Shown: positions 39,711 through 64,000 of the stretch, piece after piece | Layout of the letters: each line of letters starts with the position of its first letter | Numbering within the stretch: the stretch's first letter is position 1 | Source: Sipunculus nudus | Lineage: Eukaryota > Annelida > Sipuncula > Golfingiida > Sipunculidae | DNA length: 64,000 nt | Reading direction: 5' to 3' | Assembly (NCBI GenBank): GCA_026874595.1 | Contig: CM049308.1 | Location: forward strand, 95,528,624-95,592,623 | The notes under the pieces: model-generated | Seen by the model: only the letters and a program-made list of their open reading frames with translations | The model's database searches: none | Told to the model about the DNA's origin: nothing | Program-made: the position numbers and the translations under genes

Positions 39711-39722
39711 TGGTGTCAGAAG
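39711..39722 (+). other. Primer-binding site of gypsy element 2
   Basis: TGGTGTCAGAAG directly after the LTR, identical to the first 12 bases of the site in gypsy element 1. The two elements therefore probably use the same primer tRNA even though their LTRs are unrelated. Confidence 0.75.
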
Positions 39723-42847: not shown

Positions 42848-43885
42848 CGAAAGCAGTGCAGAGATGTCCTGCATGCCAAGAATTCCAACCTGCCTTAGCC
42901 AAAGAACCATTGATGACGTACCCCATACCAAAAACGCCTTGGCAAGTAGTAGCCAGTGATTGTTTTGAACTGGATGGTCAAAACTGCTGTGTATTTGTAG
43001 ACTTGTACTCTGACTACATTGAAGTTTGTGAGTTGGATAAAATGTCCAGTGAATCACTTATAAGCAAAACCAAACCAATATTTGCAAATCATGGAATACC
43101 TAATGTGCTGATCACAGATAATGGACCTAATTATGCGTCACAAGAGTTCAGCCTGTTTGCACAAAATAGGGATTTTGCCCACCTAACGTCCAGTCCACAG
43201 CAAGTCCAACGGAAAGGCCGAGTCAGCGGTCAAAATAGCTAAAGGACTAATAAAAAAGTCCAAACGCACTAATGGAGATATGTGGAAGGCCATATTGGAA
43301 TGGAGAAATACGCCAACACCAGGAATGGACAGTTCTCCAGTTTAAAGATTAATGCCACGCCGCACCAGATCGTTCTTACCATGCAAAGACACGCTTTATG
43401 CCCCCAAAGTGGAACAACAAGTACCACAGCAAGTTATACAGAGGAGAAAGAAAGCCAAGACCTACTATGATAGAAATGCTCGCCCGTTACCAGAACTTGT
43501 AATAGGTCATCCAGTGAGAACTAAAGTACAACCATACGCTAAAAACGCGAATTGGAAAGCGGGAGTTGTAACTGCAAAACTTGCCCCAAGAAGTTACGAG
43601 GTAGAAGTTGATGGTCGCAGCTACAGACGCAATCGAGTTCATATAAGAGAATCTGTTGACACAGATGACCTGTCTAATTACGCGGAGACTCAGCTTAACG
43701 GTACAAACAATACAAACACTGAGTCAAACACACCAGTTGATCCACCTGTCGAGCCTGATACCTCTGACACGTCCGCCCCTACGCGTAATGAGGAAGTGAA
43801 CCCCTCATTAGAGATACCCACGAGTGTTATTACAAGGTGTGGAAGAGTATCCAAACCGCCTCAGAGATTCAGAGACTATATATAA
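42800..43885 (+). pseudogene. Integrase core and C-terminus of gypsy 2
   Basis: Frame 42817-43242 completes the H2C2 finger (CPACQEFQP) and shows the first catalytic Asp (VVASDCFELDGQN) and the second (LITDNGPNYASQEF). A frameshift near 43190-43210 precedes the Glu region (NGKAESAVKIAKGLI). A stop near 43345 precedes the last part. 43352-43885 holds the C-terminal segment (GHPVRTKVQP, LAPRSYEVEVDGRSYRRNRV) and an Asp/Thr/Asn-rich tail. No chromodomain. Confidence 0.9.
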
Positions 43886-44154
43886 ATGTTCAGTAGAAGC
43901 AGTATAAGTTTAGTCCTAAGTAGTTTGAGCAACCACATGACATCATGTGTAACACAGAAATAAGGACTCATTGTTATTGCTTATAATGTCTTTAATAAGG
44001 ATCCATTACAAACCATGAATGTCATGTGGGCATTAGCAAAATATAAAAAAAGAGCGCGCACCAGTAATTGTTCAACAGTAATTTTACGTACTCTTAATGT
44101 AAGTTTAATGATCTCTGATGTGACAATTTTCTTAATTTTTGGTTGAGAAAAGGA

Positions 44155-44269
44155 TGTTGTGGAAGGTACCAGTCTAAGCGAAACGTCATTTGACCTATGA
44201 CCTGCGAGTCAGCCTCGTTATGGATATAAAGTTCTGTGTAGTTGAGCCGGAGCTCGTCAAATTATTACA
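44155..44269 (+). repeat. 3' LTR of gypsy element 2
   Basis: Follows a purine tract (GAGAAAAGGA). 115 bp, starting TGTTGTGGAAGGTACCAGTC and ending CAAATTATTACA, with a 3-bp deletion (AAT) relative to the 5' LTR. Confidence 0.93.
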
Positions 44270-44467
44270 GTGCATGGTGCGTATGACTCGTATAGGAGTC
44301 TTGAGAATATTGGATTTAATGTTTATCGGTGTGATTTCCCGAACGAATGGTTTCATTTTAAGCAAATAAAGGATCCAGCTGAATATAAGGGGCGGCAACA
44401 AACTCGGAGCATGAAGCAACGATACCCGGAAGTTCAAATACCCTTCAAGTCTGACTGCCTTGCTTGA
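44270..44467 (+). pseudogene. AID/APOBEC-like deaminase pseudogene A, C-terminal part
   Basis: Directly after the GTGCA duplication the deaminase frame resumes in phase: GAYDSYRSLENIGFNVYRC, then DFPNEWFHF, ending at TGA 44465-44467. It aligns with AYNGYRRLRRLHFRLYRC and EYPWFTRW of copy B. The layout (L..L...GF.V....F..W..F) matches the C-terminal strand and helix after the LRI..A strand in AID/APOBEC-like proteins. The continuity of frame across the retroelement proves that both parts are one gene. Confidence 0.82.
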
Positions 44468-46316
44468 CAGACTGGGCAACGTGTCAAATCCCCTTACTGG
44501 CCTGAAGAGTGAGGAATCCTGTGGATTTACGCTATATACCAGCCATGGACATAAACATGGACATTTTTTCTACTTTTTATATGACACAAACGCAAAATGA
44601 CCAGCAGGCAGTAACGTTTCACCATTCACCTGTACTTTCTTAAATATACTTCTTTTCGAACCTGACATCCTTGTCATTTGTGATTTAAATACGGTGTTGA
44701 ATAACTGCGACTCACGTTTTGAAGAAACGAAAGAAACGAATGATCAAATATTCCTAAAAAAATATAATTCAAAGGAAATATTAAAAAATGTATCCAGGCA
44801 ATGGGGCCTTATTTGGGAAAGGGCACGATCTCCATGTGTCTTCTGCACTGCTGAATACTTCGTACAATTCACACACACACCCACACCTCTTCATCCACAC
44901 ACACACACAAATATATATAATTGTGTAATCTGCCACTAGGCAATAATTGTGTCAAAAGTGTGCCTCCGGTCTAACAATATATCATAGTTGTTGCAGATAA
45001 AAACAGTTGAGGATACCAGGTGGTAACTTTAAACTTCTAGCTTAAGGGGGACCAGTAACGTATCGTACCTTTATAAACTTGGAGCTTTTATAAAAATAGG
45101 CCAGAAAATGTGGATATCACCGCACACAAGCTGCTTGTTTTGTTTATATCGACGTGTTTATATGATGTGGGGGCCCGCCAAAATAATCAAAACAAATTTA
45201 ACAAGGGCATATGGTGGCAAGTCAGATAAAGCCAGAGTTTTGCAAATGGCGTTTTGCAACAACTGATCTTTCTATCTCTGCATATATGCAACCTATAACC
45301 TAAGATGTTTTTCCGATCTGTCAACATTGCTGTGTTTACAAACATGTTAATAAACAAGTTCATACATCCTTCACGGAGGCCTTATACGACTTTTTATGAC
45401 CAGAATTACACAGAGGAAGCCAGAAATCACATAAATTCTTTTTCAAAAGGTAAGTGAATAGGCACCTATAATCGGTCGTGTGTCATCGTTGGATAAATAT
45501 AATCAGTAAGTAACAAATAGACGATTCATAATTATTTTTTATCGGCTTCATATCTATCTGTCATATCTATCCTCGTTGGCTGAACATTCTTAGTCTTGTG
45601 GCAACGTCTGTCGCATAGTACCCCTGTGCAAGCATTGATTGAGTGGAGTTAGTCATCAGACTGATAAACATTAACATGAGCATTGTACAAGGAGTGTTAC
45701 CTGCAAGTATTCACCAGTGATTCAGGTCTCATATTTCACAGGTCTCGGTCTTGATCTCTGAGGTACTGATTTTGGTCTTTTTCTAGGAGCATTGTCTCTG
45801 TCGCTGATCTGTACTAATTGTCTTCGAGATCAAGCAGAAATCAGGTACTCTACAATTACGTGGGATTTGCTCTTTGTTTACCCTTGTCTTTCCTAAACGA
45901 GAGTTTATGTGCCCACACTGCTGATCCCAACATGACGCAATCTGCCCTATAAAGGGTTCACTGATATTTCTGAGAACATTGGCCCCTGGTATAAAGGAAT
46001 AAATGAAAGCTGGTTAAACATATGGTCACGTGGTATCGGTCTTGGTCTCACTCTAAAATGTCGTATGAAATTTTACGTCATGTGTCGCTTCACTGGCTAC
46101 AGACATTGCTTACTTAGACGTTGGATGACATTTTCGTCACAAGTCTAATGAACCAGGCCAGACATCATCCCCTATGTTATAGATTATTACAGATAATTTG
46201 AACAAGGCATGGTTAAATTACGTGGCGATTATTACACTTGTTCAGGACAAGTAAATGTACAGCTGAGAAAACGATATGTATAGCCAGACAAAAAAAGGTA
46301 GTTCCATAGTTAACGT
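44468..46316. other. Non-coding, nothing recognised
   Basis: Intergenic sequence between deaminase pseudogene A and the 3' end of the minus-strand acidic-protein gene. A short (AC)n stretch lies near 44870-44912. No exon, transposon end or tandem array that I can support. Confidence 0.45.
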
Positions 46317-46322
46317 TTTAAT
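46317..46322 (-). terminator. ATTAAA poly(A) signal of acidic-protein gene
   Basis: ATTAAA on the minus strand 18 bases beyond the TAA of the acidic-protein gene. It is the common variant hexamer and the only candidate close to the stop. Confidence 0.6.
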
Positions 46323-46339
46323 TCTAAAAGTTGACCTCT

Positions 46340-48391
46340 TTACTCGTCGTAGTAGTAGTAATAGTAGTAATCATCATCATCATCATCTTCATCATCATAT
46401 TTAGGGTAAGGATACGTCGGGTAGTCATCTGGTTGATTCCAGTCGTTGTTTCGGTTGTTTCCGGAATCCTGACATCCGAATGGACCGCAGTCTCCGCCAC
46501 CGACGATGATATCCAGGAACTTCCGGTATCTCTTGTTTTCAGCTTCATCCTCCGAGTCACGTGACGCTTGGTGCACGGCCCGGGTAGTTACTACTCCTAT
46601 CACGGCCAGCATCACCAGAAACACCTAAAGAGAAAATATAATCACCATCACCATTATTATGATCAGCGTCAGCGCCATTCATAAAACATTTCTTGTAATG
46701 CTTGGTGACCACTTACTGCAAACTATGCGGCGTAGGTATCCAGTTTCATGGATACCCGCCGCATAAAAAGCTTCAAGAAAACGAAAGAACGTAAATCCTG
46801 TGCCAGACCAAAAAATGTATAAAATCAAATATTGTGTATGACAGGAAAACTTATGGATTTGGGGAGAAAATGTTAATCGAATCACCAAGACTGTTTTAGT
46901 GCCTAAACCGTACTCACTTTAAAAGTATAGCATCCAATTCCATGACATTGACGGTTGATCCTAAATTTGTGATAATCACCGCGCCGCTTGATGAGAGTTT
47001 ACGGTCGAATTTTAATTGCTCCCTCTGTATTCTCGCATCATCGACCGATTCGATTATGTCATTATGACTGTGTTAGCGTATCCATGTATCCAGTAAAACG
47101 GAAATCAGCTAGCGAGGTGTGCACGGAACCTATGCTGTTTCATTACGTTTGAATTATAGCTCACCGGCCGGGCATCCTATGTACACAAGGACCTGTGAAA
47201 ACCACGGGTGGGGCCATTCTCTCTGAGCCTGTGAGCTGTTCAAACGGTTACTGGGGCGATAAGCTGTCACTCAAAACGAAATGAACATGATTGGCTCCGT
47301 GTATTCCTCGCTTGGCCATGTATCTGTTGTCTGCAGAACTGAAACCAGCAAGCGAGGTGTGCACGCAGCCTTTGTTGTTACGTTTCGTTTGAATTACAAC
47401 TCACCGCCGGGCATCCTATGTGCCCAAGGCCCTAAGCAAACCACGTCTGGGGTAATTCTCTCTGAGCCTGTGGCCTGTTCAGACGGTTACTGGGGCGATA
47501 AGCTGTCACTAAAAACGAAATGAACATGATAGGCTCCGTGTATTCCTCGCTTGGCTGTGTCTTCCAGCACAAGGTCTCATCTGACTGGACAAAAATACAG
47601 TGCTCCCCTCTGGTGTAGCAATTCAGGATACGCGGTCATAACAAACAGCGCTTACGATATAGGGAGTAGCCCTATAGGTAAAGCGCTGTGTAAAGAGCGT
47701 AAGAGCAGGGGAGCTAGGAGTAGGACTAGGTGAATACATACATGATACACCAGGAAATCCGCTCTCGTTGGTCTGATTACACCAGGACACCCGCTTTCGT
47801 TGGTCTAATGCTTATCCCTGTGACAGAAACGGTGTTATCAGCCAACCGTGAGCGGGTGTCGCATGTTTCAAGGAGCGTAAGGAGCGTAACCAAATTTTAT
47901 ACTGATGCCGGATCGAGCTAATTTCATACAAATCCTTCTTGTTTTTTACACAATGAAGGAACAATAAATTAGTGGCACTAAAATTGGCATAAATACCAGT
48001 AAATGCTCAGCAAGGTTAGTGTTAGTTTAATATAATATAAAACAATTATTTAATTAATTTTATATTTGGATTTCCAGGTGCATACACGCATAGGTCGTTA
48101 GTTTGAGCATCTGTTTCTACCTCAGTTATATCAATACAGGCAATGGATTACGTTTTATTTTTGGAAGGTTAGTGATAAATGGCCTGGCAGGTATATTCAG
48201 CCTCTTCTTACCTTGTAAACATGGCATACTCTAAACGAGGAAGTTTTATATCAGTATTCAGTGGAAGGGATGACCATATGACTCAATATATAGGTGTATA
48301 AATTAACATGTGTAAAATTGATGCAAGATGAACAAGAGATACTTAAACTGAAAGAACCACGTACCTTGAGCTGCGCGATTTGTTTCATCAT
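46340..48391 (-). CDS. Secreted acidic protein with Asp and Tyr runs
   Basis: Two coding exons on the minus strand, about 103 residues. Exon 2 (48394-48365) has a TTCATTAACAG acceptor, GTC and ATGATG, encodes MMKQIAQLK and ends at AAG/GTACGT. Exon 3 (46624-46340) follows a TTTTCTCTTTAG acceptor in phase 0 and continues VFLVMLAVIGVVTTRA, giving a classic signal peptide of about 25 residues. The mature part starts near VHQASRDSEDEAENKRYRKF, has two cysteines (GGGDCGPFGCQDSG), an Asn/Trp/Pro/Tyr stretch and a tail of six Asp and seven Tyr. The exon-2/exon-3 join creates the signal peptide, which strongly supports the model. Role unknown: acidic secreted proteins occur in biomineral matrices and mucus, but nothing here decides. 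Intron 2 (46625-48364) holds a dispersed repeat. Confidence 0.8.
46981..47700 (-). repeat. Dispersed repeat, copy 2, internally duplicated
   Basis: Inverted counterpart of 10109-10604. It contains an inner tandem duplication of about 240 bp: ACTGGGGCGATAAGCTGTCA occurs near 47250 and 47490, each followed by AACGAAATGAACATGAT. The whole copy lies inside intron 2 of the acidic-protein gene. Confidence 0.7.
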
Positions 48392-48666
48392 GACCTGTTA
48401 ATGAACACAGAAGAAGAACAGAACTTGGTTATGTATCGAATGAAAGTCATAAAACTGTGCGATGCTTCATTCATACCTTATTTTAACTGTTTAATTCTAT
48501 CATACGGATTTCAAAAACTGGTCACAAACATGGAAAAACTACGCATTTAGAATTTTCAGTGAATGCTAATAAATGATTAAATTTAGACGCATTATTATAT
48601 ATATGACACAATGTGTAAAATATAATGTTAAATCACAAACGTTCTAGAAACCTTTTTAATACTCAC

Positions 48667-48760
48667 CTGTCTGCTTCTATGTGTTAGGATGGATTGGGCG
48701 GGATGTTTTCTGGCCCCCGTTGTGGGTAGACTGTGGACAGTAGCTGGCACTTTGTGTATT
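48667..48760 (-). other. 5' UTR exon of acidic-protein gene
   Basis: On the minus strand CAGACAG/GTGAGT at 48667/48666 is a strong donor 270 bases upstream of the exon-2 acceptor. The preceding sequence (ATCCTAACACATAGAAGCAG) has no ATG in frame with the CDS and would be 5' UTR. The transcription start is not defined; I see no perfect TATA box, only TTTTATG and AAATACA stretches further upstream. Confidence 0.5.
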
Positions 48761-50769
48761 TAGTACTGCACACCCTTTGGTTCTGCTCACGGTTCAATTT
48801 GGGATCAAGCAAAATAACATAAAAGCCCCCATTTGTTGATCCATTTTTTTTTCCACATGCGGGTATGATGACAGTAATATGTTACTTAATAACTGTTGGT
48901 AGCGTTCTGTTGCCCTTTGCTCTATGACAAAGAGAGGTAGTTTGTCTGTAATTGACCCTGTTGAGATAATAACACCTGTGGAGAAACACACGTGGGCCGA
49001 ACATTGGATTTAAAAGCTGAAAGAGTTTTGCTTTAAAAAATAACACTATCATAAAATTTTTAAAAAATATCCTGATACAGAATAAGTTATAATAAAAGAA
49101 ATTTTCGTTTTATTTTTTAAAGTTACATGACTTCTGTTCTGTTCTTCAGAATTATTTTACTATCGTAATAAACAAACAAACAGTAGAACGGAAAAAAACG
49201 ATCATTGATAAATAACCAAAATAAAAACAGAGAAGATGAGAATATGGCACCTTTGTGGGTATATATCCAGGTACACAGTTTAATTACACTTACTTATAAA
49301 ATTAGTTTAAATCGTGTGCACCAACCGTTCCAACATTTTGAAATGTAGGTTTCAGTACTAGATGGGGATTTTCGTTATTGAGTGAATTAATCTGAGGGAT
49401 AGTTGTTTTAATTTGATGGTTTTTAGGTGAAATTGATTGTTAGGTGATAATGTTCATGTGAAGAGCGGCTGACCGTTATGTGATGCTATAGATTTCAACA
49501 TTCAATAAACGGAGATAAGATCATATTGACTCATATGTTTATGTGAAGTTTGAATGCTCACTAATGCCTCGGCTCGCAATGTGCTGGTTTACTGACGTAC
49601 AGCCAGACGTAACTGAATATACCTAATTATCTTTTCAAAATCTTCTGTCATTTATATTTTACGTATTCTCAAAAAAACTGTCTCACGTAAGATTTTCGTA
49701 TTCAAGAAATAGTAAGGTCAGAACAAAATGCTAAACTTTAAGTAAGTATTAATACTGTTCTCGATAGACTCAATATTATATTAAATGGATAAATGCCCTT
49801 ATTTATGGACTAATAGGATAGCACACATTAAGCGATAACATATAATTATTTGAGTCTTATTTAGTCATTTGAATTGTCCTGGTAATCATATCGTCAACAA
49901 ACATTATTCACTGTGGGGCTTGTGTTCCCCAGTATTATGTTATAGATCAGTCGGCGCCTCGTTTTAAACCAAGTTGCAGAAACTCTTTACCCCTGGTGTT
50001 AGAATATCAAACTGACACAGCTATATCGAAGTTATGTTGCATATAATATTATAGGTTGGTTTGACTGATTGCCTTATGTTATTGGATGTGTGGCAAACAG
50101 GCAAAATTAAGGCAACATATACATGTTTATTAATTAATTTATAACGCTGTTACTAGATTTGTGTTTTTGTGTTACGGTGTGTATTTGTGTGCCTGGTATT
50201 GTTCACAATCCAAAACCTATAAATTACATACATACGCAGCATTAAAGGGAGAGCTCTGCAGGAACGTTTGGGGATAACTTAAATATAAACAGCAAGAAAC
50301 TCAATGGAGAGACATCGCCTCCTATGAACCAGATATTTTTTTCCTACGTGGACATTTTACATAACGACAATATTGACCACTGTATATATATATATATAAA
50401 CACAAGTATCATCAGGATAGCACCACAGAAATCTATTCACACCTTTACATGTTTTATGAAATATTTACAATGGTTGTATTTTTATTGTTTTCTGTCTTGT
50501 AATTTCTCAAAACAACACAGTAAAACTACACCTCAGACTATCATGCTACACAAATAAGCTAGCTTAGAAGACAAACCATACAAAATTTCATGATAATTCA
50601 TGCTGAACTTGGGTTCTGAATTGAGTGCGAGTTTAATTCACAAAGGACAACAAGTAAAAACAACAAGTTGTTGGCGTCACCATTTATAACAAACAAAACA
50701 ATACTTTACTCTCATGTACACAACAGTTCTTCTAATATCAGATGAACACCCAAGTAAGAACACTGGGCT
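48761..50769. other. Non-coding, nothing recognised
   Basis: AT-rich intergenic sequence, including the probable promoter area of the acidic-protein gene near its left edge. No gene or repeat supported. Confidence 0.4.
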
Positions 50770-50775
50770 TTTATT
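50770..50775 (-). terminator. AATAAA poly(A) signal
   Basis: Minus-strand AATAAA 38 bases after the TGA of the micro-gene at 50808-50921. Confidence 0.6.
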
Positions 50776-50807
50776 TCATAGTTCCTTCTTAAAGAACAAC
50801 GGAGCCC

Positions 50808-50921
50808 TCAATGTCTACCGCAAAGTCCCTTCCTTGTGTTTGCAAAAACTGATAGTATCACCAGTATGACTATAACCACGGGGAGGGCAGTTGTAACAGG
50901 AATGCCTTGTAAACAGTACAT
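50808..50921 (-). CDS. 37-aa single-pass membrane micropeptide (candidate)
   Basis: On the minus strand the ATG at 50921 opens 37 codons: MYCLQGIPVTTALP, a hydrophobic stretch VVIVILVILSVFA and a basic tail NTRKGLCGRH. That looks like a one-pass membrane peptide. It lies between a TATAAATA box about 80 bases upstream and an AATAAA 38 bases past the stop, so the whole unit could be about 200 nt. A strong acceptor (TTTTTTTCTCTCAG at about 50934-50947) lies just before the ATG, so it may instead be a terminal exon. The overlapping frame reads HSCYNCPPRGYSHTGDTISF with CKHKEGTLR and a stop, resembling a cysteine-rich extracellular module. Only one frame can be the product; I slightly favour the cysteine-rich terminal exon if upstream exons exist. 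Confidence 0.35.
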   Translation of the reverse strand: MYCLQGIPVTTALPVVIVILVILSVFANTRKGLCGRH

Positions 50922-51002
50922 GTTCGATGTATATCTGAGAGAAAAAAAGTCAGCAGCTCAAAAAGCGACAGTCGACAAGACGTGCTAGTACCGCACTGCT
51001 CC

Positions 51003-51010
51003 TATTTATA
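51003..51010 (-). promoter_or_regulatory. TATAAATA box
   Basis: TATAAATA on the minus strand followed by GGAGCAGTGCGGTAC. Transcription would start near 50975, about 54 bases before the micropeptide ATG. Confidence 0.45.
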
Positions 51011-51680
51011 TGTGCTGAGAGAGCGGCCTTCACAAGGTGAGGGATGCACAATCAATGCGCTTTTTCTGTTCATTTTTTTAAAGAAGTCTCTGTCTCTATT
51101 CGTGTCTGTCAGACATAATTAGTTATATCCTGTGGGACTATTTCATTTTAAATCCAGACGCATCCACGCTTTTATTCAGTTGTACTTCGAGTTCGTCATG
51201 CCAGAAACCAGTCGTATTTTGATTGTATTTCGCTGCAACACGAGATGTTAGGAAGTTTGTAATCTGCCGATTTTCAATGCTTTGAGGTTGTTGGCCTGTG
51301 TTCTGATATAGCTGTCATATATTACAAACCTGCACATTAACTAATCATGTTTCATCTTGTATAGATTTTATTTGCAAACGGCTAGTTTTTTTCGGGTCTA
51401 ATTTTGAGACTGAGAATGGTTAAATTACTATTTGTTCTTGTCAGTGTACAGTAAACCTGACTGTACAAATACACAATACAGGTAGTGATATCCCTGCATG
51501 GATAACAGAGTGGTATAAAATATACCATTATCTAAAGTTTACAATATGCATTTTCAGTAAACTCTTCCTAGATGCTTGTATTAACATATTTATTATGATT
51601 CAGTTCTTATAACGGGTTAATAAGTCTGGACCACATATACATGTTGTAACTGTCCAATCTGCGTGGCTTGTATGAATAAA
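51011..51680. other. Intergenic, divergent promoter region
   Basis: Sits between the minus-strand micro-gene and the plus-strand signal-peptide gene. No coding exon recognised. Confidence 0.4.
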
Positions 51681-51687
51681 TATAAAA
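51681..51687 (+). promoter_or_regulatory. Possible TATA box of the signal-peptide gene
   Basis: TATAAAA about 115 bases upstream of the ATG at 51800, in a locally A/T-rich stretch, so specificity is poor. Confidence 0.35.
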
Positions 51688-51799
51688 AATAAATAGATTA
51701 TATTTCAGTTAAACCTATACCCTTGTTAGTTATTCCAAAAGACTCAATTTATCACCAATTGCCAGAGGGAACTGAAACGTCTTCAGAACGCCACTCACC

Positions 51800-51860
51800 A
51801 TGAACAGCCGGTATAACTATCAGCTTACGCTTGTGCTGCTGACCGTCACGTTGATCATAG
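51800..51860 (+). CDS. Exon 1: signal peptide of secreted deaminase-type gene
   Basis: CTCACCATG provides a good start context. The exon encodes MNSRYNYQLTLVLLTVTLII and ends after one further base at a perfect donor G/GTAAGT (51861), so the intron is phase 1. The short polar start and LVLLTVTLII core form a typical secretory signal. It is the founder of the 93-bp array that follows: CTGCTGACCGTCACG and GATCA..AG/GTAAGTACACG are shared. Downstream phase-1 exons at 55443, 58295, 59615 and 59749 are the natural partners. Transcript evidence is needed to prove the linkage. Confidence 0.7.
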
Positions 51861-54470
51861 GTAAGTACACGTTTGTTATTCGATATATCACCTGTCGGTA
51901 AGATGAATCAGCTGAGGGGCCCGGCTGTGCTTCTCACCGTCACGCTGATCACAGCTAAGTACACGTTTGTTATATGATATATCACCTGTTGGTAACATTA
52001 ACCAGCTGGAGGGCCCGGCCGTGCTGCTGACCATCATTCTGATCACAGGTAAGTACACGTTTTTATATGATATATCACCTGTTAGAAAGATGAATCAGCT
52101 GAGGGGCCCGGCTGTGCTTCTCACCGTCACGCTAATCACAGGTAAGTGCACGTTTGTTATATGATATATATCCTGTTGGTAACATTAACCAGCTGGAGGG
52201 CCTGGCAGGGCTGCTGACCGTCACGCTGATCACAGGTAAGTACACGTTGTTATGTGATATATCACCTGTCGGTAACATGTCCCAGCTGAGGGGCCCGGCC
52301 GTGCTACTGACCGTCACGCTGATCACAGGTAAGTACACGTTGTTATATGATATATCACCTGTTAGAAACATGTCCCAGCTGAGGGGCCCGGCCGTGCTAC
52401 TGACCGTCACGCTGATCACAGGTAAATACACGTTGTTATATGATATATCACATGTTAGAAACATGTCCCAGCTGAGGGGCCCGGCCGTGCTACTGACCGT
52501 CACGCTGATCACAGGTAAGTACACGTTGTTATATGATATATCACCTGTTAGAAACATGTCCCAGCTGAGGGGCCCGGCCGTACTACTGACCGTCACGCTG
52601 ATCACAGGTATGTACACGTTGTTATATGATATATCACCTGTCGGTAACATGTCCCAGCTGAGGGGCCCGGCCGTGCTACTGACCGTCACGCTGATCACAG
52701 GTAAGTACACGTTGTTATATGATATATCACCTGTTAGAAACATGTCCCAGCTGAGGGGCCCGGCCGTGCTACTGACCATCATGCTGATCACAGGTAAGTT
52801 CAAGTTGTTATATGATATATCACCTGTTAGAAACATGTACTAGCTGAGGGGCCCGGCCGTGCTACTGACCGTCACGCTGATCACAGGTAAGTACACGTTG
52901 TTATATGATATATCACCTGTTAGAAACATGTCCCAGCTGAGGGGCCCGGCCGTGCTACTGACCGTCACGCTGATCACAGGTAAGTACACGTTGTTATATG
53001 ATATATCACCTGTTAGAAACATGTCCCAGCTGAGGGGCCCGGCCGTGCTACTGACCGTCACGCTGATCACAGGTAAGTACACGTTGTTATATGATATATC
53101 ACCTGTTAGAAACATGTCCCAGCTGAGGGGCCCGGCCGTGCTACTGACCGTCACGCTGATCACAGGTAAGTACACGTTGTTATATGATATATCACATGTT
53201 AGAAACATGTACCAGCTGAGGGGCCCGTCCGTGCTACTGACCGTCACGCTGATCACAGGTAAGTACACGTTGTTATATGATAAAACACCTGTTAGAAACA
53301 TGTCCCAGCTGAGGGGCCCGGCCGTGCTACTGACCGTCACGCTGATCACAGGTAAATACACGTTGTTATATGATATATCACCTGTTAGAAACATGTCCCA
53401 GCTGAGGGGCCCGGCCGTACTACTGACCGTCACGCTGATCACAGGTATGTACACGTTGTTATATGATATATCACCTGTCGGTAACATGTCCCAGCTGAGG
53501 GGCCCGGCCGTGCTACTGACCGTCACGCTGATCACAGGTAAGTACACGTTGTTATATGATATATCACCTGTTAGAAACATGTCCCAGCTGAGGGGCCCGG
53601 CCGTGCTACTGACCATCATGCTGATCACAGGTAAGTTCAAGTTGTTATATGATATATCACCTGTTAGAAACATGTACTAGCTGAGGGGCCCGGCCGTGCT
53701 ACTGACCGTCACGCTGATCACAGGTAAGTACACGTTGTTATATGATATATCACCTGTTAGAAACATGTCCCAGCTGAGGGGCCCGGCCGTGCTACTGACC
53801 GTCACGCTGATCACAGGTAAATACACGTTGTTATATGATATATCACCTGTTAGAAACATGTACCAGCTGAGGGGCCCGGCCGTGCTACTGACCGTCACGC
53901 TGATCACAGGTAAGTACACGTTGTTATATGATATATCACCTGTTAGAAACATGTCCCAGCTGAGGGGCCCGGCCGTGCTACTGACCGTCACGCTGATCAC
54001 AGGTAAGTACACGTTGTTATATGATATATCACATGTTAGAAACATGTACCAGCTGAGGGGCCCGGCCGTGCTACTGACCGTCACGCTGATCACAGGTAAG
54101 TACACGTTGTTATATGATAAAACACCTGTTAGAAACATGTCCCAGCTGAGGGGCCCGGCCGTGCTACTGACCGTCACGCTGATCACAGGTAAATACACGT
54201 TGTTATATGATATATCACCTGTTAGAAACATGTCCCAGCTGAGGGGCCCGGCCCTGCTACTGACCATCATGCTGATCACAGGTAAGTACATGTTTTTTTA
54301 TATATATATCACCTGTCGGTAGCATATACCAGGTGAGGAACCTGCCTTTCCGTTGACCGTCACGCTGATTACAGATAAGTACACGTTTGTTATATGATAA
54401 ATCACATGTCGGTAACATATACCAGCTGAGGGGCCTGGTCATGCTGCTGATCATATGTAAAATAACGTTT
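51861..54470 (+). repeat. 93-bp array of duplicated signal-peptide exons with donors
   Basis: About 28 tandem units of 93 bp (31 codons). A typical unit reads GTAAGTACACG, TTGTTATATGATATATCACC, TGTTAGAAAC, then ATG and a segment translating as MSQLRGPAVLLTVTLIT, then CAG/GTAAGT. Each unit therefore holds a start codon, a signal-peptide-like core and a splice donor in the same phase as exon 1. Most donors are GTAAGT. Others are GTAAAT, GTATGT, or lost (CTAAGT in the first unit, near 51956). A nine-unit block (837 bp) is duplicated: ATGTACTAGCTGAGG occurs near 52836 and 53673. The ends, especially after 54280, are more diverged. Long frames on both strands result from the 93-bp period. Confidence 0.9.
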
Positions 54471-54607
54471 GTTATTTTATATATCATAATGAAATGTGAT
54501 GTCATAAAGGTTTACCTAAAACTCACAGAATGCTATTTTTTCCATTCGTTTAGCAAATTGATGCATAATCTGGTGTATGCTCAGCCATTATCTGACTGAT
54601 CATTTTT

Positions 54608-55415
54608 AGCTCGACTGACTGAAACTCAGAAGTGACCCCCCCACCATATTATTACAATTTAGTACAAAACCTCCAGTTTCTGAAGAAATAGTGCATGATC
54701 TCCATGATTCTTTGCATGCTTATTAATTATGGAGTGTTTCATCAGTTTCTGCATACTGGTGGTGCCACCCTGACTTTTTTTCAAATGTTTACCCCTTTTT
54801 TTATTCTCTATTTTTGATACCCTCAAAGATGTAGTCGTCCGTTAAGAGGGTACAAATCGTAATCATTCAATCTATAACTTTTATTTTAACATCCAGGGAG
54901 GCCAATGAAAAATCTTCTCGGAAACCTGAAATTAGGTCTCTGGTGTCCTTTGAGCTAAAGGGCTTTTAAGTACCCCTCTGTATAATAAAAAATCTTAATA
55001 CAAAACCTCCCGTTTCTGAACAACTAATGCATTCATCACCATGATTCTTTGCATGCACATTCATCATGGAGTATTTCATCAATTCCTGCAGGTTGGTGGT
55101 GCCATCTGGATTTTTTTTTCAAATTTTTACGCATTTTCTTTTAATTTTTTATTGTTAAGACCTTCAAAGAAGTAGTCGTCTGTACACAGGGCACAGCTCG
55201 TAACCATGTTCCTGGAATACTCTAAGTTGACATCCAAGAGAGGTCAATGAAACATCTCCTTGGAAACCTGAAATAAGGTCTCTGTTACCCATATCCTCCA
55301 AGCTATGCTTCAATTGAATGGGGATACCACCTACAAAATTTGGCATTTAAATGATAATATGCCTTTTGCCAATGTCTTCCTAGTCAGCTGTGCATCATGA
55401 CACCTGGGTCACTTG
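54608..55415 (+). mobile_element. TTTTTAGCTC element in the gene's first intron
   Basis: An 808-bp element beginning AGCTCGACTGACTGAAACTC and ending ACACCTGGGTCACTTG, flanked by TT (54606-54607 and 55416-55417). It contains two diverged halves, each with CAAAACCTCC.GTTTCTGAA, CATGATTCTTTGCATGC and a GGTGGTGCCA.C motif, and GGGCACAGCTCGTAACC-type sequence. No coding capacity. It lies between the signal-exon array and exon 2 of the candidate secreted gene, ending only 27 bases before that exon. Confidence 0.85.
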
Positions 55416-55442
55416 TTAATTTACATCTATTCTTTGCTTCAG

Positions 55443-55469
55443 TGGCCACCCAACGTTGCGAGGATATGA
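55443..55469 (+). CDS. Exon 2: 27-bp mini-exon
   Basis: Acceptor TCTTTGCTTCAG and donor GAGGATATGA/GTAAGT bound 27 bases. Joined to the one base left by exon 1 it reads VATQRCEDM plus one base (phase 1 in, phase 1 out). VAT completes a plausible signal-cleavage site, and the first cysteine of the mature protein follows. Both splice sites are strong for so short an exon. Confidence 0.6.
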   Translation, partial: WPPNVARI

Positions 55470-56039
55470 GTAAGTTTATATTTTTTAATAGTTTTGCAAA
55501 TGTAAAATAAGTATTGACTTTTCTGACAAAGGTCACTAATAGAATATGTTAACATTTTGGAGGAATTCCTTAGACGGTGCAGTTGCAGTGTTTTATGCAA
55601 AATTCATAAATTCACCGCCCATATCCTTCAAACATTAAGTGACTTACAGAGAACCGTGCGCTTTTCACTTTTCTCCCAAACAGTTTATTTGATCACGAAA
55701 ATATTGTACAATATATCGAAGTGTTGTCTCATATTTTGAATAAAATTGCTCCATTTAGACATAACACAGTTGTTGTCAGAAGTGAAATAGCCTTGTACAA
55801 CGAAAATATCCGCAGCGAAAAACAAAGATCATTGAGGCTTGAAAGGCAATGGCGTAAAACCAGGTTTGCAGGTGCATCGCCAAGTGTTTATTTTTAGCAA
55901 CGAAATCGCTTATTTTGAGCAATGAAATGTCTTCATCAAACGTTTCCTTGTTGCCTAAAAGGTCAGTGAATGTTCAAGTGACCTTAAGCCTCTTTCAAAA
56001 TTATAAATGGTCTCTTTGGAAATGACACTCAGAGTGAGT
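55470..56039. other. Intron sequence
   Basis: No additional exon supported in this stretch, which leads into a LINE fragment. Confidence 0.4.
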
Positions 56040-57030
56040 TCCCCCGCTATAAATCCACCTCTGCTTTGGCAGATGCTGATACTGCAGAAAAGTTAGAGAA
56101 AATACGCTTTGATAACAAGACGTTTTTGATAACAAGTCCTAACAAGACGTTTTATCAGCGGAGCAAATAATATTTACTCAGGTCAGCCATTCTGAAGAAC
56201 AAGTCAGGGTGATCATCCGTCGCTCAACCTGTAAATCGTGCATGCTCGATCCTATTCCGACTTGGATGGTTAAAGAACTCATCTCAGTATTAGTTCCTGT
56301 TATAACAAAGATTATCAATGAATCATTGCTTAAAGGACATGAACATGGCTCTATGAAAATTGCACATGTTACCCCACTGCTAAAAAATAAGTCGCTCAAT
56401 CCAGAAGAGTGTCGGCCAATGTCGGATCTTAATTTTCTCTCATAGATGCTTGAGCGTGTAGTCGAGAGTCAATTTTTAAACCATATGGAACAAATAATCT
56501 GCATGAACTGAAGCAGTCAGCCTACAAGTAACCACATGGAGTTCAGACAGCCTTGCTCAGTGTTCAAAATGATATTTTGTGTCCTCTTAATAGGAAAAAA
56601 TCGTACCCCGTACTTCTTTTCGTAACTTGGGTGTCATCTTTGATGAACATTTAACAATGACTTATATTAATTCGGTCTTGAGGAGCGCATATTTCCATTT
56701 ACGAAATACTGTTAAAATAATGCGGTATCTTTCAAATGGACTTACCTGCTGGTTCAGGTCTTGTTCATCTGTCTTATAACTTACCGTGCACTGCATGGTC
56801 TATCACCAAAATACACCAATGAACCGGTTTCATCAAATCAATCATCTCGCGCTTTCAGATCTTCAAATCAGCCAGCAGTACATTTATTCACGTTTGGTGG
56901 CAGGGCTTATGCAATTGCTGCCCCAGAAATTTGGAACAAACTTCCCATTCAATGTTCGTTGTACGGACACACTGATTTGTTTTAGGAGTCGTTTATTAAG
57001 ACTGATCTGTCCAGGGAAGCGTAATTTATA
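56040..57030 (+). pseudogene. LINE fragment, internally deleted
   Basis: The 5' half reads RRSTCKSCMLDPIPTWMVKE, then VITKIINESLLKG, KIAHVTPLLKNKSLNPEECR and a LERVVESQ block. This is the start of a Jockey/CR1-like LINE reverse transcriptase. The central catalytic part is missing. The sequence jumps near 56570-56640 to LGVIFDEHLTMT and then the C-terminal region (LTYRALHGLSPKY, GGRAYAIAAPEIWNKLP). Stops and frameshifts throughout. A (TA)n tract starts at 57111, where a 3' tail might be. It lies in the intron between exons 2 and 3. Confidence 0.88.
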
Positions 57031-57110
57031 GTTGTTTCTGATGTTTTTCGGGGATGCTTATAAATATTTTAGATGCTTTTTTAAATCTATTTTATTCATT
57101 TTAATGTTTT

Positions 57111-57111
57111 A

Positions 57112-57162
<51 letters not shown>

Positions 57163-57260
57163 ACGCCGTTAGCTTCATTCTAACCACATTCACCTGATGA
57201 TCGGGTCGCATCCCGTGAAACAGTCTATTGTTAATTTACAGTGGTTTTTCTTCAGTGTTT

Positions 57261-57318
<58 letters not shown>
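57111..57318. repeat. Two (TA)n microsatellites
   Basis: TA tracts at about 57111-57161 and 57261-57318 flank a short unique stretch; either could be a LINE tail. Confidence 0.9.
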
Positions 57319-57321
<3 letters not shown>

Positions 57322-58290
57322 CGCCTTGATTAATCATACATGCTTAGATATGTTGCGCTTTATATATGTGTATAATATAATAATAAAAAACATCCTTTTG
57401 TCTGGGATTTAGCGACCCTAAGATATAAGTGTAAGATTGCGTTAGGAGCACTACAAATGTGATGAACGTTTCTTTGATATGACATGCCTGAAGACCAGAA
57501 ACTAAAGATTCTTAGGCCGAGGTCAGACTTTTCTGCTTGAAAACCAAAAAAAATAGGACCAGCAACAACCCGCAAAAAGACAGAAAAAGCTTTTGGTCTG
57601 CATTATACGCAAATCAAGCTGAAGGTGTACCGGCAAGTGGACATTACCTCCCTGAAACATGGCTATGGAACCTGGACGCTGTGCAGCAAACATCTGAAGA
57701 TTCACGATCAGTTTTACTTTTGCCTACGAAAAAAAAAAAATTGGATGTCATGGGAAGACAAAATCCCCAACACAGATGGGCTGCTCAAAGACAACTAACG
57801 GCAGTTTGCACTCACCAAAGTCCTGCTTTGGCGAGGGGGGGGGGGGGGGGGGGGGTTTAACGTGTGGTGCTGGTGGAAGACCTCTGACCTCTAGCCCAAG
57901 AAACAGAGGACGGCAACTCGAAAGCGCTTTAAAGACGTTCATGGAGTATCCCTTAGAGCTTGTGCCATGCCTGAATATGACTTTGAAGTTTTTGGCACTT
58001 ATCACAGGCACAGGCTCAGGACTGCAGGAATGGCGACCGGACTTGTAGTAGTCTGACCAGAGTATGAACGCTTATCTGTAACGTTTGGACTGCGCCCTCA
58101 AATTGGCAGTTACCGACGTCTCCGTTTATTCGCCTCCCTTGACAAGTTAACATCTATTACTAACAGATATTTAATGTCGCTTTACATTTTAACATCTTAT
58201 ACATACAACTTTAAGAAGTATAATACTATACTGTACATTTTAAGAACTTCAGATATATACTGCCACTACATATATATACATTTTCTACCT
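57319..58290. other. Intron sequence with a G20 tract
   Basis: About 20 consecutive G residues at 57836-57855, continuing the GGCGAG lead-in. Open frames near 57537-58048 have no family signature and run through the G tract. No exon recognised until 58295. Confidence 0.45.
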
Positions 58291-58294
58291 ACAG

Positions 58295-58342
58295 ACATGC
58301 CACCAGAACTTGACAATTCTGGGTGTACCATTTCAATAAATG
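58295..58342 (+). CDS. Exon 3: second cysteine mini-exon
   Basis: Acceptor TTTTCTACCTACAG and donor AAATG/GTGAGT bound 48 bases, phase 1 in and out. In the frame set by exons 1 and 2 it reads N-MPPELDNSGCTISIN plus one base. It adds the second cysteine of the predicted mature N-terminus, so the pair could form a disulfide. It joins in frame to either exon 4 (59615) or the deaminase exon (59749). Confidence 0.6.
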
Positions 58343-58653
58343 GTGAGTATGGTGCCGGATCTTTAAGTTGAAATCTGGCTTTTTCACTGAGAAAGGAGGT
58401 TACGTTCAAACTAATCATTTGACATTTACAGAAAATCGTGTATATAACGATATGTATAACTCAGTGTTTCATTTTTTTATTTCTTGGTCATCTCAGCTTG
58501 ACATTTAAGATAATCAGAAAATGTAATAATCCTGGCAGATAAAAGTAATATATCCGAGCAAAAGTACTGGTATAATCCTCGGGTTGCATCCTTTGGCTTA
58601 CTTTCAGACTAAGCGGGACATTTTAACAGCGAGTAAGAGAACGAAAACAAGGG

Positions 58654-58806
58654 AAAATACTGGGACACGGTCAGCAAATTAAATTTCACAATGCGCCCTC
58701 CCATAAATACTGGGATACGGTCAGCAAATTAAATTTCACAATGCGCCCTCCCATAAATACTGGGACACGGTCAGCAAATTAAATTTCACAATGCGTCCTC
58801 TCATCA
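58654..58806. repeat. 50-bp tandem repeat, three units
   Basis: Three copies of AAATACTGGGACACGGTCAG followed by CAAATTAAATTTCACAATGC and GCCCTCCCAT. Confidence 0.9.
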
Positions 58807-58810
58807 AAAA

Positions 58811-59468
58811 ATGGTGTCCACACCATCTGTGTCTGAGTTCAAGTCCGAGTCAGGTTACTCGTGTCTGAGTCAGGTTAGTCGTGTCCGAGTCAGGTTACTC
58901 GTGTCCGAGTCAGGTTACTCGTGTCCGAGTCAGGTTACTCGTGTCCGAGTCAGGTTACTCGTGTCCGAGTCAGGTTACTCGTGTCCGATTCAGGTTACTC
59001 GTGTCCGAGTCAGGTTACTCGTGTCCGAGTTCCCAAGAGTTCTTGAGATTTGATTCCAAGTCCACCTTATTCAAGTCCGAGTCATTTTGAACCGGAGTTC
59101 AAGTCTGAGTCCGAATCGAATACAAATCTCCGTATTATAAGAAATTTAAAATTTAAAATTTAAAATTGAGATTATCATGTGTATTTTACGTTAGTACATA
59201 TGCTTTTTACTTAAATGTTTAATTACATTTTTCTCTCTATGCAGAGCAAAAGCTTGCTATATATAATCCTTTTGGTGTATTCTGTTAGTATTTCGGATAG
59301 GTATGAGAGACTCGAGAGCGCTTAGGCTAATTTATCGAGTCCTAACCTCAGAGTCCGAGTTCAAGTCCGAGTCCAGGACCCCTGAGTCCAAACCTAAGTG
59401 CGTGTCACAAAAAATGGGCTCTAGTTCGGACAAGAGTCCATGTCCGGACTTGAGTCCTACATCACTGA
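58811..59468 (-). mobile_element. hAT-like non-autonomous element with 20-bp minisatellite
   Basis: Read on the minus strand it starts CAGTGATGTAGGACTCAAGT and continues with repeated GGACTCGGACTTGAACTC words, a terminus style common in hAT non-autonomous elements. The distal part contains about nine copies of a 20-bp unit GTGTCCGAGTCAGGTTACTC (plus strand, 58856-59036). A matching far terminus was not found, so it may be truncated. It lies in the intron between exons 3 and 4. Confidence 0.5.
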
Positions 59469-59614
59469 AAATTGCATATTTAAAAAATAAGAGAAAATAA
59501 TTATCCACCATGGTGATAAGGTTTAACTTGTGCAAATATTTCTAATGCTTCGACCAAAAGATTTGAAATTCCATTCTAATGACTAATTTATCTTAAACAC
59601 TTTTCCTCTTTTAG

Positions 59615-59670
59615 ACATGAGACAGCATCTTGAGATATCAGACCTGACCGAAATTAGAAGAGAGGAGTAA
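59615..59670 (+). CDS. Exon 4: alternative terminal exon (candidate)
   Basis: A strong acceptor (TTTTCCTCTTTTAG) precedes ACATGAGACAGC. In the frame from exon 3 it reads D-MRQHLEISDLTEIRREE and then TAA (59668-59670). Used as the last exon it would give a short secreted peptide of about 60 residues with two cysteines. An alternative weak donor (GA/GTAATC at 59667) exists, but it leaves phase 2, which does not enter the deaminase frame. Both outcomes are possible; a lost base here would also explain the mismatch. Confidence 0.45.
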
Positions 59671-59748
59671 TCATACATCCTTACTTCCTCTAATACATGT
59701 ACATCTTCCATTTGCCAGTATATTAAAATCAATGAATAAATCTTTCAG

Positions 59749-60466
59749 GGATGGAGACCCTTTTGAGAAGCGAAGGATTCCGTGCTCCGTTCATGGCTCC
59801 CCAGATGTACGTCTTTCTGAAGGCCGCCATCATGTGCCAGGGATCAAGTGACTGGAGTCAGGTGTTTGGGATAGTGTGTAGAAGCTGTAGAAGGCGGAGC
59901 GGATCAGCTCTACATGCCGAGGACAACCTCAGCTCTACCTGAGCCATAGACTGTCACCAAGAGATGTTGGTTATTTAAGGAACCAGGTCACAGGTAAACG
60001 GTGTGAGCTGTGGCTGGTTATTAACAGACAACCTTGTCCTACGTGCAGCAGTGCCCACCTACCAGCCGTGAGTAACTGGATCAGAGCACAGCTGTCTTCC
60101 TCAGTGGTTGTCAGGATGGCCTGGGCAGGTTTCCATCCTCATTTCTTTTACCTTTCTCTCAGGACTTGTCAGGCACAGAGGGGCACGGATCGGAGAATCC
60201 AGGAGGCGTACAATGGCTATCGCAGGCTTCGCCGTCTTCACTTTCGGCTGTATCGTTGCATATTCGAGTACCCTTGGTTTACTCGGTGGGGTGTCCAACA
60301 ACGCACAATATATTACAGACAAGGACAAACCAGGTGTGAGTGGCGGAGCATGAGTCGCTGGGCTCGTCGTCGGGCTCGTCGTCTACCGTCCATCGGTGTC
60401 AAGAACGACTGTCTGGGTACACCTGGCAAACCCAGTACAGCCATCATAGGCCTGAACTGGGCTTGA
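59749..60466 (+). CDS. AID/APOBEC-like deaminase domain (copy B), one frameshift
   Basis: Acceptor TAAATCTTTCAG at 59748; with the one base left by exon 3 the frame is G-METLLRSEGF. It continues RAPFMAPQMYVFLKAAIM, QVFGIVCRS and HAEDNLSS (His-Ala-Glu at 59913-59921: zinc His and catalytic Glu). One base is missing at 59935/59936, exposing a TGA at 59940. The following frame is then open for 177 codons to TGA 60464-60466: ELWLVINRQPCPTC (PCxxC at 60032-60046: zinc Cys pair), VVVRMAWAGF, AYNGYRRLRRLHFRLYRC, EYPWFTRW, then an Arg-rich tail. The motif order fits zinc-dependent nucleic-acid deaminases of the AID/APOBEC-like group; other deaminase-fold clades, including toxin-type, remain possible. 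With exons 1-3 it would be secreted; from the ATG at 59751 cytosolic. The intact downstream frame suggests recent loss or an assembly error. Confidence 0.72.
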
Positions 60467-60829
60467 AGGCTCATATTGGAATGCATCAGGTACATCAGGA
60501 CTCGGTTTCATGTACAACTGAAAAATCAGTTTTGCTAAACTTGTCATGAGACTAAACAGTCAGAACTCCCGCCCCCACCCCAAAGTTTCTCTTTTGTTCT
60601 TTCATTTTCGTTCACTACTGTCTTGTTTATTTTTGCACAGTCATTCAGAGGATTAAATTCAAGTGTATCGACTTACCATAGACCCAATAACCCTGAAAAT
60701 GTTAACCAGCTATTCATTAAACCTCAGCCTATACTCATTATGCAGTTTATTAAAATTGAGAATAGATGGAATAATAGAAGTTCATGAGCCTCTCAGTCAA
60801 GAAAGACATATCCCTGTTATATAAAGGCC
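60467..60829. other. 3' flank of deaminase copy B
   Basis: Candidate ATTAAA poly(A) hexamers occur at 60652-60657 and 60716-60721. Nothing else recognised. Confidence 0.4.
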
Positions 60830-61396
60830 TACGTGTGTGCGTGTACAAGGAAAAACCCATCCCTGACGTCCCTGGGGGTATGCACGTATCCATATGTACC
60901 TATTTCACTACTGACCTCCCTATATGTATACATGAATAAATTCACCCCTGACGCCCTTGTGCGTGTAAACGTACAAACATTCACCCCTTGACGCGACTGT
61001 GCGTATAAACGTAAAAACATTCACCCTTGCCGCGACTGTGCGTATAAAGTATAAACATTCATCCCTCGACGCGACTGTATATATAAATGTATTAACATTC
61101 ACCCCTTGACGCGACTGTACGTACAAACGTATAAACATTCACCTCTTGACACAACTGTACGTATAAACGTATAAACATTCACCCCTCGACACGACTGTAT
61201 ATATAAATGTATAAACATTCACCCCTTGACGCGACTGTACGTATAAATGTATAAACATTCACCCCTTGACGCGACTGTACGTACAAACGTATAAACATTC
61301 ACCCCTTGATGTATATATAAATGTATAAACATTCACCCCTTGACGCGACTGTACGTATAAACGTATAAACATTCACCCCTCGACGCGATTGTACAT
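60830..61396. repeat. 40-bp minisatellite
   Basis: About 14 units around TGACGCGACTGTACGTATAA followed by ACGTATAAACATTCACCCCT. The first units are more diverged. The array resumes for one partial unit at 62141-62175 after the LTR insertion. Confidence 0.9.
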
Positions 61397-62140
61397 TGTT
61401 ACGGAACCTAATAACAACAGATCACGTAGTCGTGACGAAAAGAAGTCAGTGTTTTTTTTTGTTTAACAAATAATTATAATTTATTCTTAAAACAATCCTA
61501 ACATTAAATCCACTAAATCAATACAATTACACAATAAAACAATAAAAATGTACAGTACTAGAGCGTTCGGGTCCTAGGCTTTGATTCTGGATACCACCAT
61601 TGTCAAAGCTCAACAAGTCCTTTAAAACATATAATCCAGATGAACAGTTCACGTAAAGTCTTCTCAAAATCAATCTGTTGTAATCCAAAAGTGAAGTTCT
61701 GGTAATAGTCCCAAAAGCAAACTAAAGACTGAATAAAATCTGTTACAAAGTTCGAAGAATATCTATATGTGCTGCAATTATCGGAAGATCCATAAACTGA
61801 CTCATACTTTTTCGCGTCCGCTGGAATTTTTCTCTCTCTCCCCTCGGCTCTAAACACAGCCCCTATTTATAACTCATTTTCCGAAAATTCTAGAAATGCA
61901 AATCTCCACAGAAAAACACACACGTTACAGGAACAGACTTGAAACATCTAGAACAAAGAACTCTGTGTTTTTACATTTCAGACCCCACACGTGGGCCAGG
62001 TCAACTGGCACGTCTCCCATGGCAACGAACTATGCCGGCCTAACAGACACATGCAAGACTCTAGCGCACAACAAACCCGGGCCTGCCTAACACGAATCAG
62101 AATGTCAACAGCGCACAATAAAAAAAAGACAACTATAACA
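61397..62140 (-). mobile_element. Minus-strand solo LTR in the 40-bp array
   Basis: A 744-bp block aligns with 31427-32220: TGTTACGGAACCTAATAACA and CAGATCACGTAGTCGTGACG at the left, GCTCTAAACACAGCCCCTAT in the middle and CAGACCCCACACGTGGGCC near the right. On the minus strand it starts TGTTATAGTTG, has TATAAATAGGGGC near 61861-61873 and ends TTCCGTAACA, giving TGTTA...TAACA termini. No clear target duplication, perhaps because the array itself is variable. It is longer at its minus-strand start than the copy at 31427. Confidence 0.75.
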
Positions 62141-62179
62141 ATATATAAACGTATAAATATTCACCCCAATGCCTCTGTT

Positions 62180-63630
62180 GTCACAAGTAAGATGTGACAG
62201 TTTGTCTTCTTTATGATAGCTATTACAGAATTAATTATGGTTATTGGAATATATTAAAAGTTATGTTCGTTTTGGCCTTTTGCTGATACGTTGCGAGGTA
62301 AGGGATCATGTCTGTTTTAGACTTCTCTGCACCTGTCGTATGATCTACATTCGGAGACACCGGTATTTGCTTCATAGCAACGCCAGCACGTCATAGACTG
62401 TCAGGTCTTATCTATAGGTTTTCACAATTTACACAGCTACTCATTTAGTGACGTGGTGACTGACGGTTGACTGTCAGATTCTGAACACATCGTGATTACT
62501 CATCTGTAGAGACTTTGAAAGTCTTGCTTGACATTTAGGGATGCACGTATTAAACTTTCCAATTTAACAACATATGTTTAATAAAACATTCCTCTCGTTG
62601 ATCAGAATCTTACGCAGTTTGTCAGTCAAGGATGGGTTGATTTTACTTATTAGTAATGCTTGCTTTCTGACATGTTGTATGGACCCGTCAGGAGTTTCCT
62701 CACCTTTGGCAGCTCTTATAGTTAAACTAAATCAGGAACTTCAGTTCAATAGAACATAGAAATAGACATTGTTACATAATATTAACGTACAATTGATGTA
62801 AGACTGAATGTCAAAGCCGTAGTAGACACGACAGATCACGGAAAACTGTCAGATCTGGAAAGAATGTTAAAAAGGACTCCGTGAACTGACATTTCTGTGT
62901 GACACCATGTGATCTCATTGACCTTGAGTTCATATATTCATACATAGGTTAGGTACTGCTCTTACTTATGTACCTATAACATGCTAACTCCAAAGTATGT
63001 AATATAGTAAGTAGGATAGATATATTAAATTATAATTTTGAAGGCTAGGGTGGGATGGCGGTTTGAGAAGATCGGGACTACCTGTCCCTTCTCTTTGAAT
63101 CAGATCATTTAAATTCATTTATATATCATGCTTCACGGGAACCACTATTGTATTAACCTGCCCATCTTTATTTACAAAACTCTAACTATACAATTTGAGT
63201 GATTTTTTTTTGTTAAGCTAACCATCTACCATTTTAAACGGAAGCTTAACTAAATATCTAAATTGGCAGAATTCCACGTTTCCTAGCTTTTTAAAGGGCG
63301 CAGCACAAATTGGTGAATATATAAGGTGAGAAGCAAAGATATATCACATTTATGCTAAAAATAAGTTTAATTATGTCCTTATATATTTTATATCAAAAGA
63401 ACACTTTAGAGACAATTTTAAATCCATACTCCTTTACGTGTAAACAAACCACTCATTTACTGGAATAATGTAATGGATAAATAAAAAGAAAATACCACCG
63501 GATTTTCCATTTTTTTGAGTAAAGAAAAACTATTTCTGCAGTTTAGCAGAATATATCATTAAAGAATAGAAGGAACCTATTTTCAGATTTATGACGTTTT
63601 CCAGTAACGAGAAACAAATACCCATTGTTG
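62180..63630. other. Non-coding, nothing recognised
   Basis: AT-rich. The open frame at 62574-62759 (61 codons) has a hydrophobic, cysteine-containing middle but no splice or family support. Confidence 0.4.
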
Positions 63631-63680
63631 CTCACATTGTTGCTGCTGACCGTCAAACTGATACAGATAAATAAATCTTT
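63631..63680 (+). pseudogene. Relic of the signal-peptide exon and donor
   Basis: TCACATTGTTGCTGCTGACC then GTCAAACTGATACAGATAAATA aligns with the 3' half of exon 1 and its donor (CTTGTGCTGCTGACCGTCAC, then GTTGATCATAGGTAAGTAC). The GTAAGT donor is degraded to ATAAAT and no upstream ATG lines up. It suggests that a further copy of the secreted-gene 5' end once lay downstream of copy B. Confidence 0.55.
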
Positions 63681-64000
63681 CGTATTTGATGATACAGCTG
63701 CCTATGCAATGTCTCTTTTGAGAATTTCCAATTTAACATTTACTAAAATTTAACTTTCGCTCGAACCATAGTGAAGTAAGGGTAGCGCAAAATTGATGCT
63801 CGGTTTTTTCCCAGTATGCTTATTGTTCTCAAGTGTGATCTGTTAAAAAGGAGTATAATTACTGCGACTGATTAAAGTATATATTTTTCAGTTTACGTTT
63901 TTCAGGATAATGTGTTGAAATTCAACAATTTCCTGCATGTTGTGGTTTTGAGATAAAGTCTAAGAAAGGACCACAGAAAAACAAACGACTTAGGTCCACC
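63681..64000. other. Window end, nothing recognised
   Basis: No gene or repeat supported. Confidence 0.4.

Follow-up and report, generated by a model that had tools for sequence, protein, structure and literature searches.

Behind the predicted first exon of a putative secreted-protein gene in Sipunculus nudus, a 93-bp unit is repeated in tandem, and most copies carry a start codon, an open frame and a splice donor. Does this array provide a choice of alternative first exons, or is it a minisatellite that grew at an exon–intron boundary and leaves with the intron? We analysed the array in its window, a 64,000-nt stretch of contig CM049308.1, whose numbering is used throughout (Table 1). The exon structure of the array-bearing gene is a prediction from splice sites, phase and an in-frame spliced reading. 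It includes a fitting acceptor and exon at 55443, where the earlier note had placed the splicing partner of the units. A possible extra exon near 59616 was out of phase by eye and was omitted from the gene model. Candidate exon 3 is followed, before the last exon, by two further tandem arrays. Intron 1 also holds, between the array and exon 2, a 290-bp direct duplication with 78% identity (54659-54942 and 54995-55284).

Table 1. Features of the array, its predicted host gene and a related junction copy.
Feature	Positions	Strand	Basis
Predicted exon 1: start codon, hydrophobic signal-peptide core MNSRYNYQLTLVLLTVTLII, donor GTAAGT at 51861	51800-51860	+	In-frame spliced reading with exons 2-3
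3′ end of exon 1 (28 nt), the portion found in the repeat unit	51833-51860	+	Local alignment; upstream similarity no better than shuffles
Tandem array, 27 full units and a decayed 28th	51861-54486	+	TRF (to 54450), unit alignment, local alignment for the right end
Left edge, u01-u04: higher divergence; no ATG in u02 and u04; donor GT missing after u01	51861-52235	+	Unit alignment
Homogenised core, u05-u26: higher-order period of nine units (837 bp); u11 and u20 contain stop codons	52236-54281	+	Unit alignment
Right edge, u27-u28: without ATG; donor GT missing after u27; u28 with a 12-nt gap	54282-54486	+	Unit alignment
Candidate exon 2 (VATQRCEDM), acceptor tgcttcag, donor gtaagt	55443-55469	+	Splice sites and phase
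Candidate exon 3 MPPELDNSGCTISIN, donor gtgagt	58295-58342	+	Splice sites and phase; spliced reading
Candidate last exon with deaminase-like motifs HAE ... PCPTC, the pieces lying in different frames with a frame break between	59749-60466	+	Sequence reading
Lone degenerate junction copy (exon-1 end and intron start), without array or GT donor, weak match	63641-63690	+	blastn and alignment

TRF reported a period of 93 bp with 28.1 copies and 92% matches at 51833-54450, in agreement with an earlier count of about 28 units. The unit alignment resolved 27 full units of 93-94 bp (94 bp in u01, u02 and u04), followed by the decayed u28, through which local alignment carries the similarity to 54486. 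At the position of the unit ATG, u02 and u04 read ATT, and both right-edge units, u27 and u28, read ATA. Including the native donor, 20 of the 34 plus-strand GTAAGT sites in the 64-kb window fall within 2.6 kb at the array. An open frame of up to 278 aa that crosses the array was considered as coding sequence and rejected, as the unit consensus is open in one opposite-strand frame too. Because of this, and because frames in a 32-bp array of the same window reach 801 aa, open frames here are no evidence of coding. Three Pfam matches to a repeat-array open frame were judged to be chance: two fell below the curated cut-offs, and for the third, CovS-like_HAMP (30.9 bits, cut-off 27.4), no single stretch passed alone.

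What was copied is narrower than a first exon. Local alignment of the exon-1 region with the unit consensus covered the exon's final 28 nt (GTGCTGCTG...ATCATAG) and ran into the start of the intron. Upstream of this match, the 65 nt that include the start codon were no more similar to u01, u02, u05, u12, u27 or u28 than expected by chance, with 0.18 to 0.71 of 2000 shuffles reaching the observed score. Since the alignment ends at 28 nt and the upstream sequence does no better than shuffles, the unit is, as judged by alignment, 28 nt of exon joined to about 65 nt of post-donor intron. By the same alignment, the ATG of the units is not derived from the start codon of the gene and sits in intron-derived sequence. 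The description of the unit as the end of exon 1 with start codon and donor therefore holds for the last 28 nt and the donor; the gene's start codon lies outside the unit. Similarly, the proposal of a satellite born from an exon was right in that the array is gene-derived, while its source is an exon–intron junction, mostly intron, rather than a whole exon. A weak match to the same junction occurs alone at 63641-63690 (best blastn E of 8e-4 with the u28 region, 0.003 with the unit and 0.013 with the exon-1 region). Upstream of that junction, likeness to exon 1 or to the units was no greater than in shuffles (0.08 to 0.56), and the match may mark where another, decayed copy of the gene begins and continues past the window.

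The units have not diverged evenly. Mismatch per cell was 0.0215 in the 22 core units and 0.153 in the five full edge units, a difference of about sevenfold, and this pairing of divergent edges with a uniform core is, on the unit alignment, homogenisation that spares the edges. Core units nine apart differed at a mean of 1.46 positions; for every other lag between 1 and 13 the mean was 3.2-4.1. As lag-nine pairs are the most alike, the alignment points to duplication of an 837-bp block of nine units within the core. The same periodicity would also fit an array that is partly an artefact of assembly, with the nine-unit block or the copy number absent in the animal. Six of the 13 core pairs nine apart are identical, and one of the comparable arrays of lancelets discussed below was aberrantly assembled in a genome draft, according to the cited part of PMC3087553. 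However, the remaining seven pairs differ and the edges are diverged. We regard an artefact as unlikely, and it would in any case be compatible with a minisatellite origin.

To function as first exons, the units would have to keep their start codon, donor and frame. Among the 27 full units, the donor GT is present in 25, GTAAGT in 19 and ATG in 24, with an in-frame stop in two; ATG, GT and absence of a stop coincide in 21. Most donors are thus intact, as had been observed, but the view that this is unusual for a neutral minisatellite was not borne out: fully intact units are nearly confined to the homogenised core (20/22), against one of five at the edges (u01-u04, u27). Preservation of frame carries no weight as evidence either, given the three 94-bp units and a stop in the exon-1 frame at 51899. 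We counted distinct changes from the consensus across the 27 full units, leaving out u28 and scoring a change common to several units once. The five ATG and GT positions received 3 of 55 such changes, against 2.96 expected. Adding u28 as far as column 75 gave a mismatch per cell of 0.043 at ATG/GT and 0.049 overall. In this comparison, which has low power, there is no detectable constraint on the ATG or the donor GT. The substitution test that the earlier note had proposed therefore showed no preference for keeping either, which goes against function.

In all units, variable columns were as frequent in exonic (25/52) as in intronic (21/42) sequence (Fisher P = 1.0). Of the 30 exonic changes, 12 were synonymous, 17 were non-synonymous and one created a stop, so the suggested dN/dS check across units gave no significant synonymous excess (12/30 against 31-35% expected; P = 0.33-0.57). 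In the core alone, exonic columns varied less than intronic ones (7/52 against 11/41; P = 0.12), with mismatch per cell of 0.015 and 0.030, respectively. ATG and GT were never lost from core units, and 34% of random five-column sets were equally clean. The lower exonic variability in the core is a weak hint toward constraint that lies within chance. Only 18 distinct sequences exist among the 27 full units, and with such low power, weak selection on the units may be present.

We consider it very probable, from the sequence evidence above, that the array is a neutral minisatellite of the type termed mirage in lancelets, spliced out with intron 1, and that its copies are not kept for use. The exon 1/intron 1 junction (28 exonic and about 65 intronic nt) would have been duplicated in tandem, and the duplicated units would then have expanded and been homogenised through unequal exchange or slippage, including the nine-unit block duplication. 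The copies would lie within intron 1, and the gene, if expressed, would most likely splice from its native donor at 51861 to 55443, removing the entire array. Core units would owe their intact ATG, open frame and donors to the youth and homogenisation of the copies, and not to selection. The anatomy of the array, its turnover pattern and the absence of detectable constraint are direct observations; the order and age of the events, native-donor use and lack of function we infer, as we do the exon structure. Arrays of this sort would thereby mimic a set of coding exons, their homogenised copies preserving ATG, frame and donor although no selection is detectable.

Less passive roles can be envisaged. 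The array could act in RNA, as U1-binding decoy donors in intron 1, or rare internal starts could give secreted isoforms; we think either very unlikely. If true, a battery of decoy donors could tune splicing or protect from premature polyadenylation, with copy number as the dose. The array would offer a convenient natural test of donor choice among some 20 good tandem donors.

The use of the units as alternative first exons, with transcription starting inside the array and unit donors joined to 55443 to yield slightly different signal peptides, is a shade less probable still. In 22 of the 27 units an ATG opens a frame that runs to the junction, 21 of these 22 also carry the GT donor, and joining exon 2 keeps the downstream frame. 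However, the absence of detectable constraint on ATG and GT argues against such use, four of the five edge units are broken, and the downstream deaminase-like exon contains a frame break in this assembly. The 22 unit peptides also fall into six near-identical kinds, with 14 of the 22 the same. The menu of first exons that had been imagined would consequently offer almost no variety, and each unit would need its own start site.

Equally improbable is that transcripts from the normal promoter use the repeat donors to end exon 1 at alternative sites. The precedent is human IFI6, where splicing from two downstream repeat units produces isoforms, according to the cited passages of PMC4526556. IFI6 and the present array share tandem repeats with 5′ splice sites behind an exon, and GT donors are available in 25 of 27 units here. 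Unlike in IFI6, where the repeat donors yield isoforms, the frame from the native ATG stops at 51899, before the first unit donor. Therefore, the downstream donors do not extend the reading frame, and all 27 would yield the same 33-residue product. Use of unit donors would be noise or down-regulation and not protein diversity. A reading of the units as internal 56-nt cassette exons was rejected because a protein with one unit included would end after 22-32 aa. By itself, acceptor strength would not have been a reason to reject it: an acceptor-like TTAG|AAA is present in 20 of 27 units, with 8-10 pyrimidines per 17 nt. The candidate acceptors have 13 (exon 2), 12 (exon 3) and 9 (last exon), and AG dinucleotides in 38300-51000 are preceded by 7.8 on average.

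The mirage-type minisatellite that we favour has close parallels, although the earlier note knew of no described case. In lancelets, minisatellite-like tandem repeats across exon–intron boundaries, called mirages, are described for Adh3 and the globins BflGb6 and BflGb9 (PMC3087553, cited part). TnC has been added to the mirage genes, and PGBD5 repeats likened to them (PMC3902484, cited part). For the lancelet genes, these sources as cited describe diverged cluster edges and RT-PCR that suggests regular splicing. Three features of mirages that can be tested on sequence recur here. The tandem unit spans an exon–intron boundary (28 nt and about 65 nt, the exon being predicted); splice signals, AG/GT in mirages, are kept in many but not all units (GT 25/27, GTAAGT 19/27); and concerted evolution inside accompanies diverged edges that escape homogenisation (0.0215 against 0.153). 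By these features, the array is a long example of an already described kind.

In the cited passages, lancelet mirages may repeat either the 5′ or the 3′ boundary, which is a further point of likeness. There are also differences. The 27-28 units of 93 bp here, at the donor of the first exon, contrast with haplotypes of six and three units of 150-160 bp in BflGb6, and with units of 10-72 bp in Adh3. The term mirage in the cited papers refers to cephalochordates. For the neighbouring pol protein, the named matches within the 120 of 2276 listed belonged to several marine invertebrates and to fishes, with no lancelet. Human segmentally duplicated genes have variable internal tandem repeats at exon–intron boundaries (PMC2812944, cited part), which share with the array a minisatellite expansion at the boundary. 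In recently duplicated human genes, such expansions can create novel introns and alternative splicing. The human repeats are shorter, averaging four 30-bp units, and were found by comparing transcripts and paralogues (PMC2812944, cited part). Our literature search found no such array described at a signal-peptide exon, which is no proof of absence. Its length and its position at such an exon make the array a striking, well-preserved example of a boundary minisatellite and not a new kind.

The host gene has a relative upstream in the window. Two pieces at 39137-39563 and 44270-44461 share HAE, PCxxC and AWAGF with the downstream gene (59749-60466); they carry stops and are split by a Ty3/gypsy-type reverse transcriptase stretch with open frames at about 40233-43885. 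Both deaminase-like genes resemble invertebrate AID/APOBEC-like deaminases by motif only. The motif is given as H[AVS]E-x(24-36)-PCxxC in the cited part of PMC5956068, and, measured across frame breaks, HAE and PC stand about 37 residues apart in the downstream gene; for the upstream relative the spacing is about 47. Pfam gave no match to the last-exon pieces, or matches below the family cut-off (Zn_ribbon_10 0.099, Pox_E10 0.095). Protein searches found nothing at E 0.001 for the longer last-exon piece (540 candidates) or at E 1 for the X-joined last-exon sequence (31 candidates), and PDB sequence searches with the deaminase-like pieces found nothing at E 1 and E 10. For neither of the two deaminase-like genes did a Pfam or PDB match exceed the threshold. 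AlphaFold2 modelling from a single sequence gave an unusable result (mean pLDDT 34.8). Given the frame break in the last exon and the stops and Ty3/gypsy-type interruption of the upstream relative, the array-bearing gene could be a pseudogene; alternatively, a sequencing error may have produced the frame break.

Scanning the window for Rfam families (gathering threshold) and for tRNAs found nothing. Among the 25 longest of 66 inverted-repeat pairs in 44000-64000, the only candidates were TA-rich arms at 57.1-57.3 kb. Tandem repetition is widespread in the window: the TRF list holds 17 arrays of period 14 or more, including the present one, which cover 13.6 kb (21%). One array of 32-bp units occupies 5.8 kb (3233-8989), with open frames on the plus strand of up to the 801 aa mentioned above, and other 32-bp arrays lie at 31000-31425, 32257-32691 and 35989-38047.
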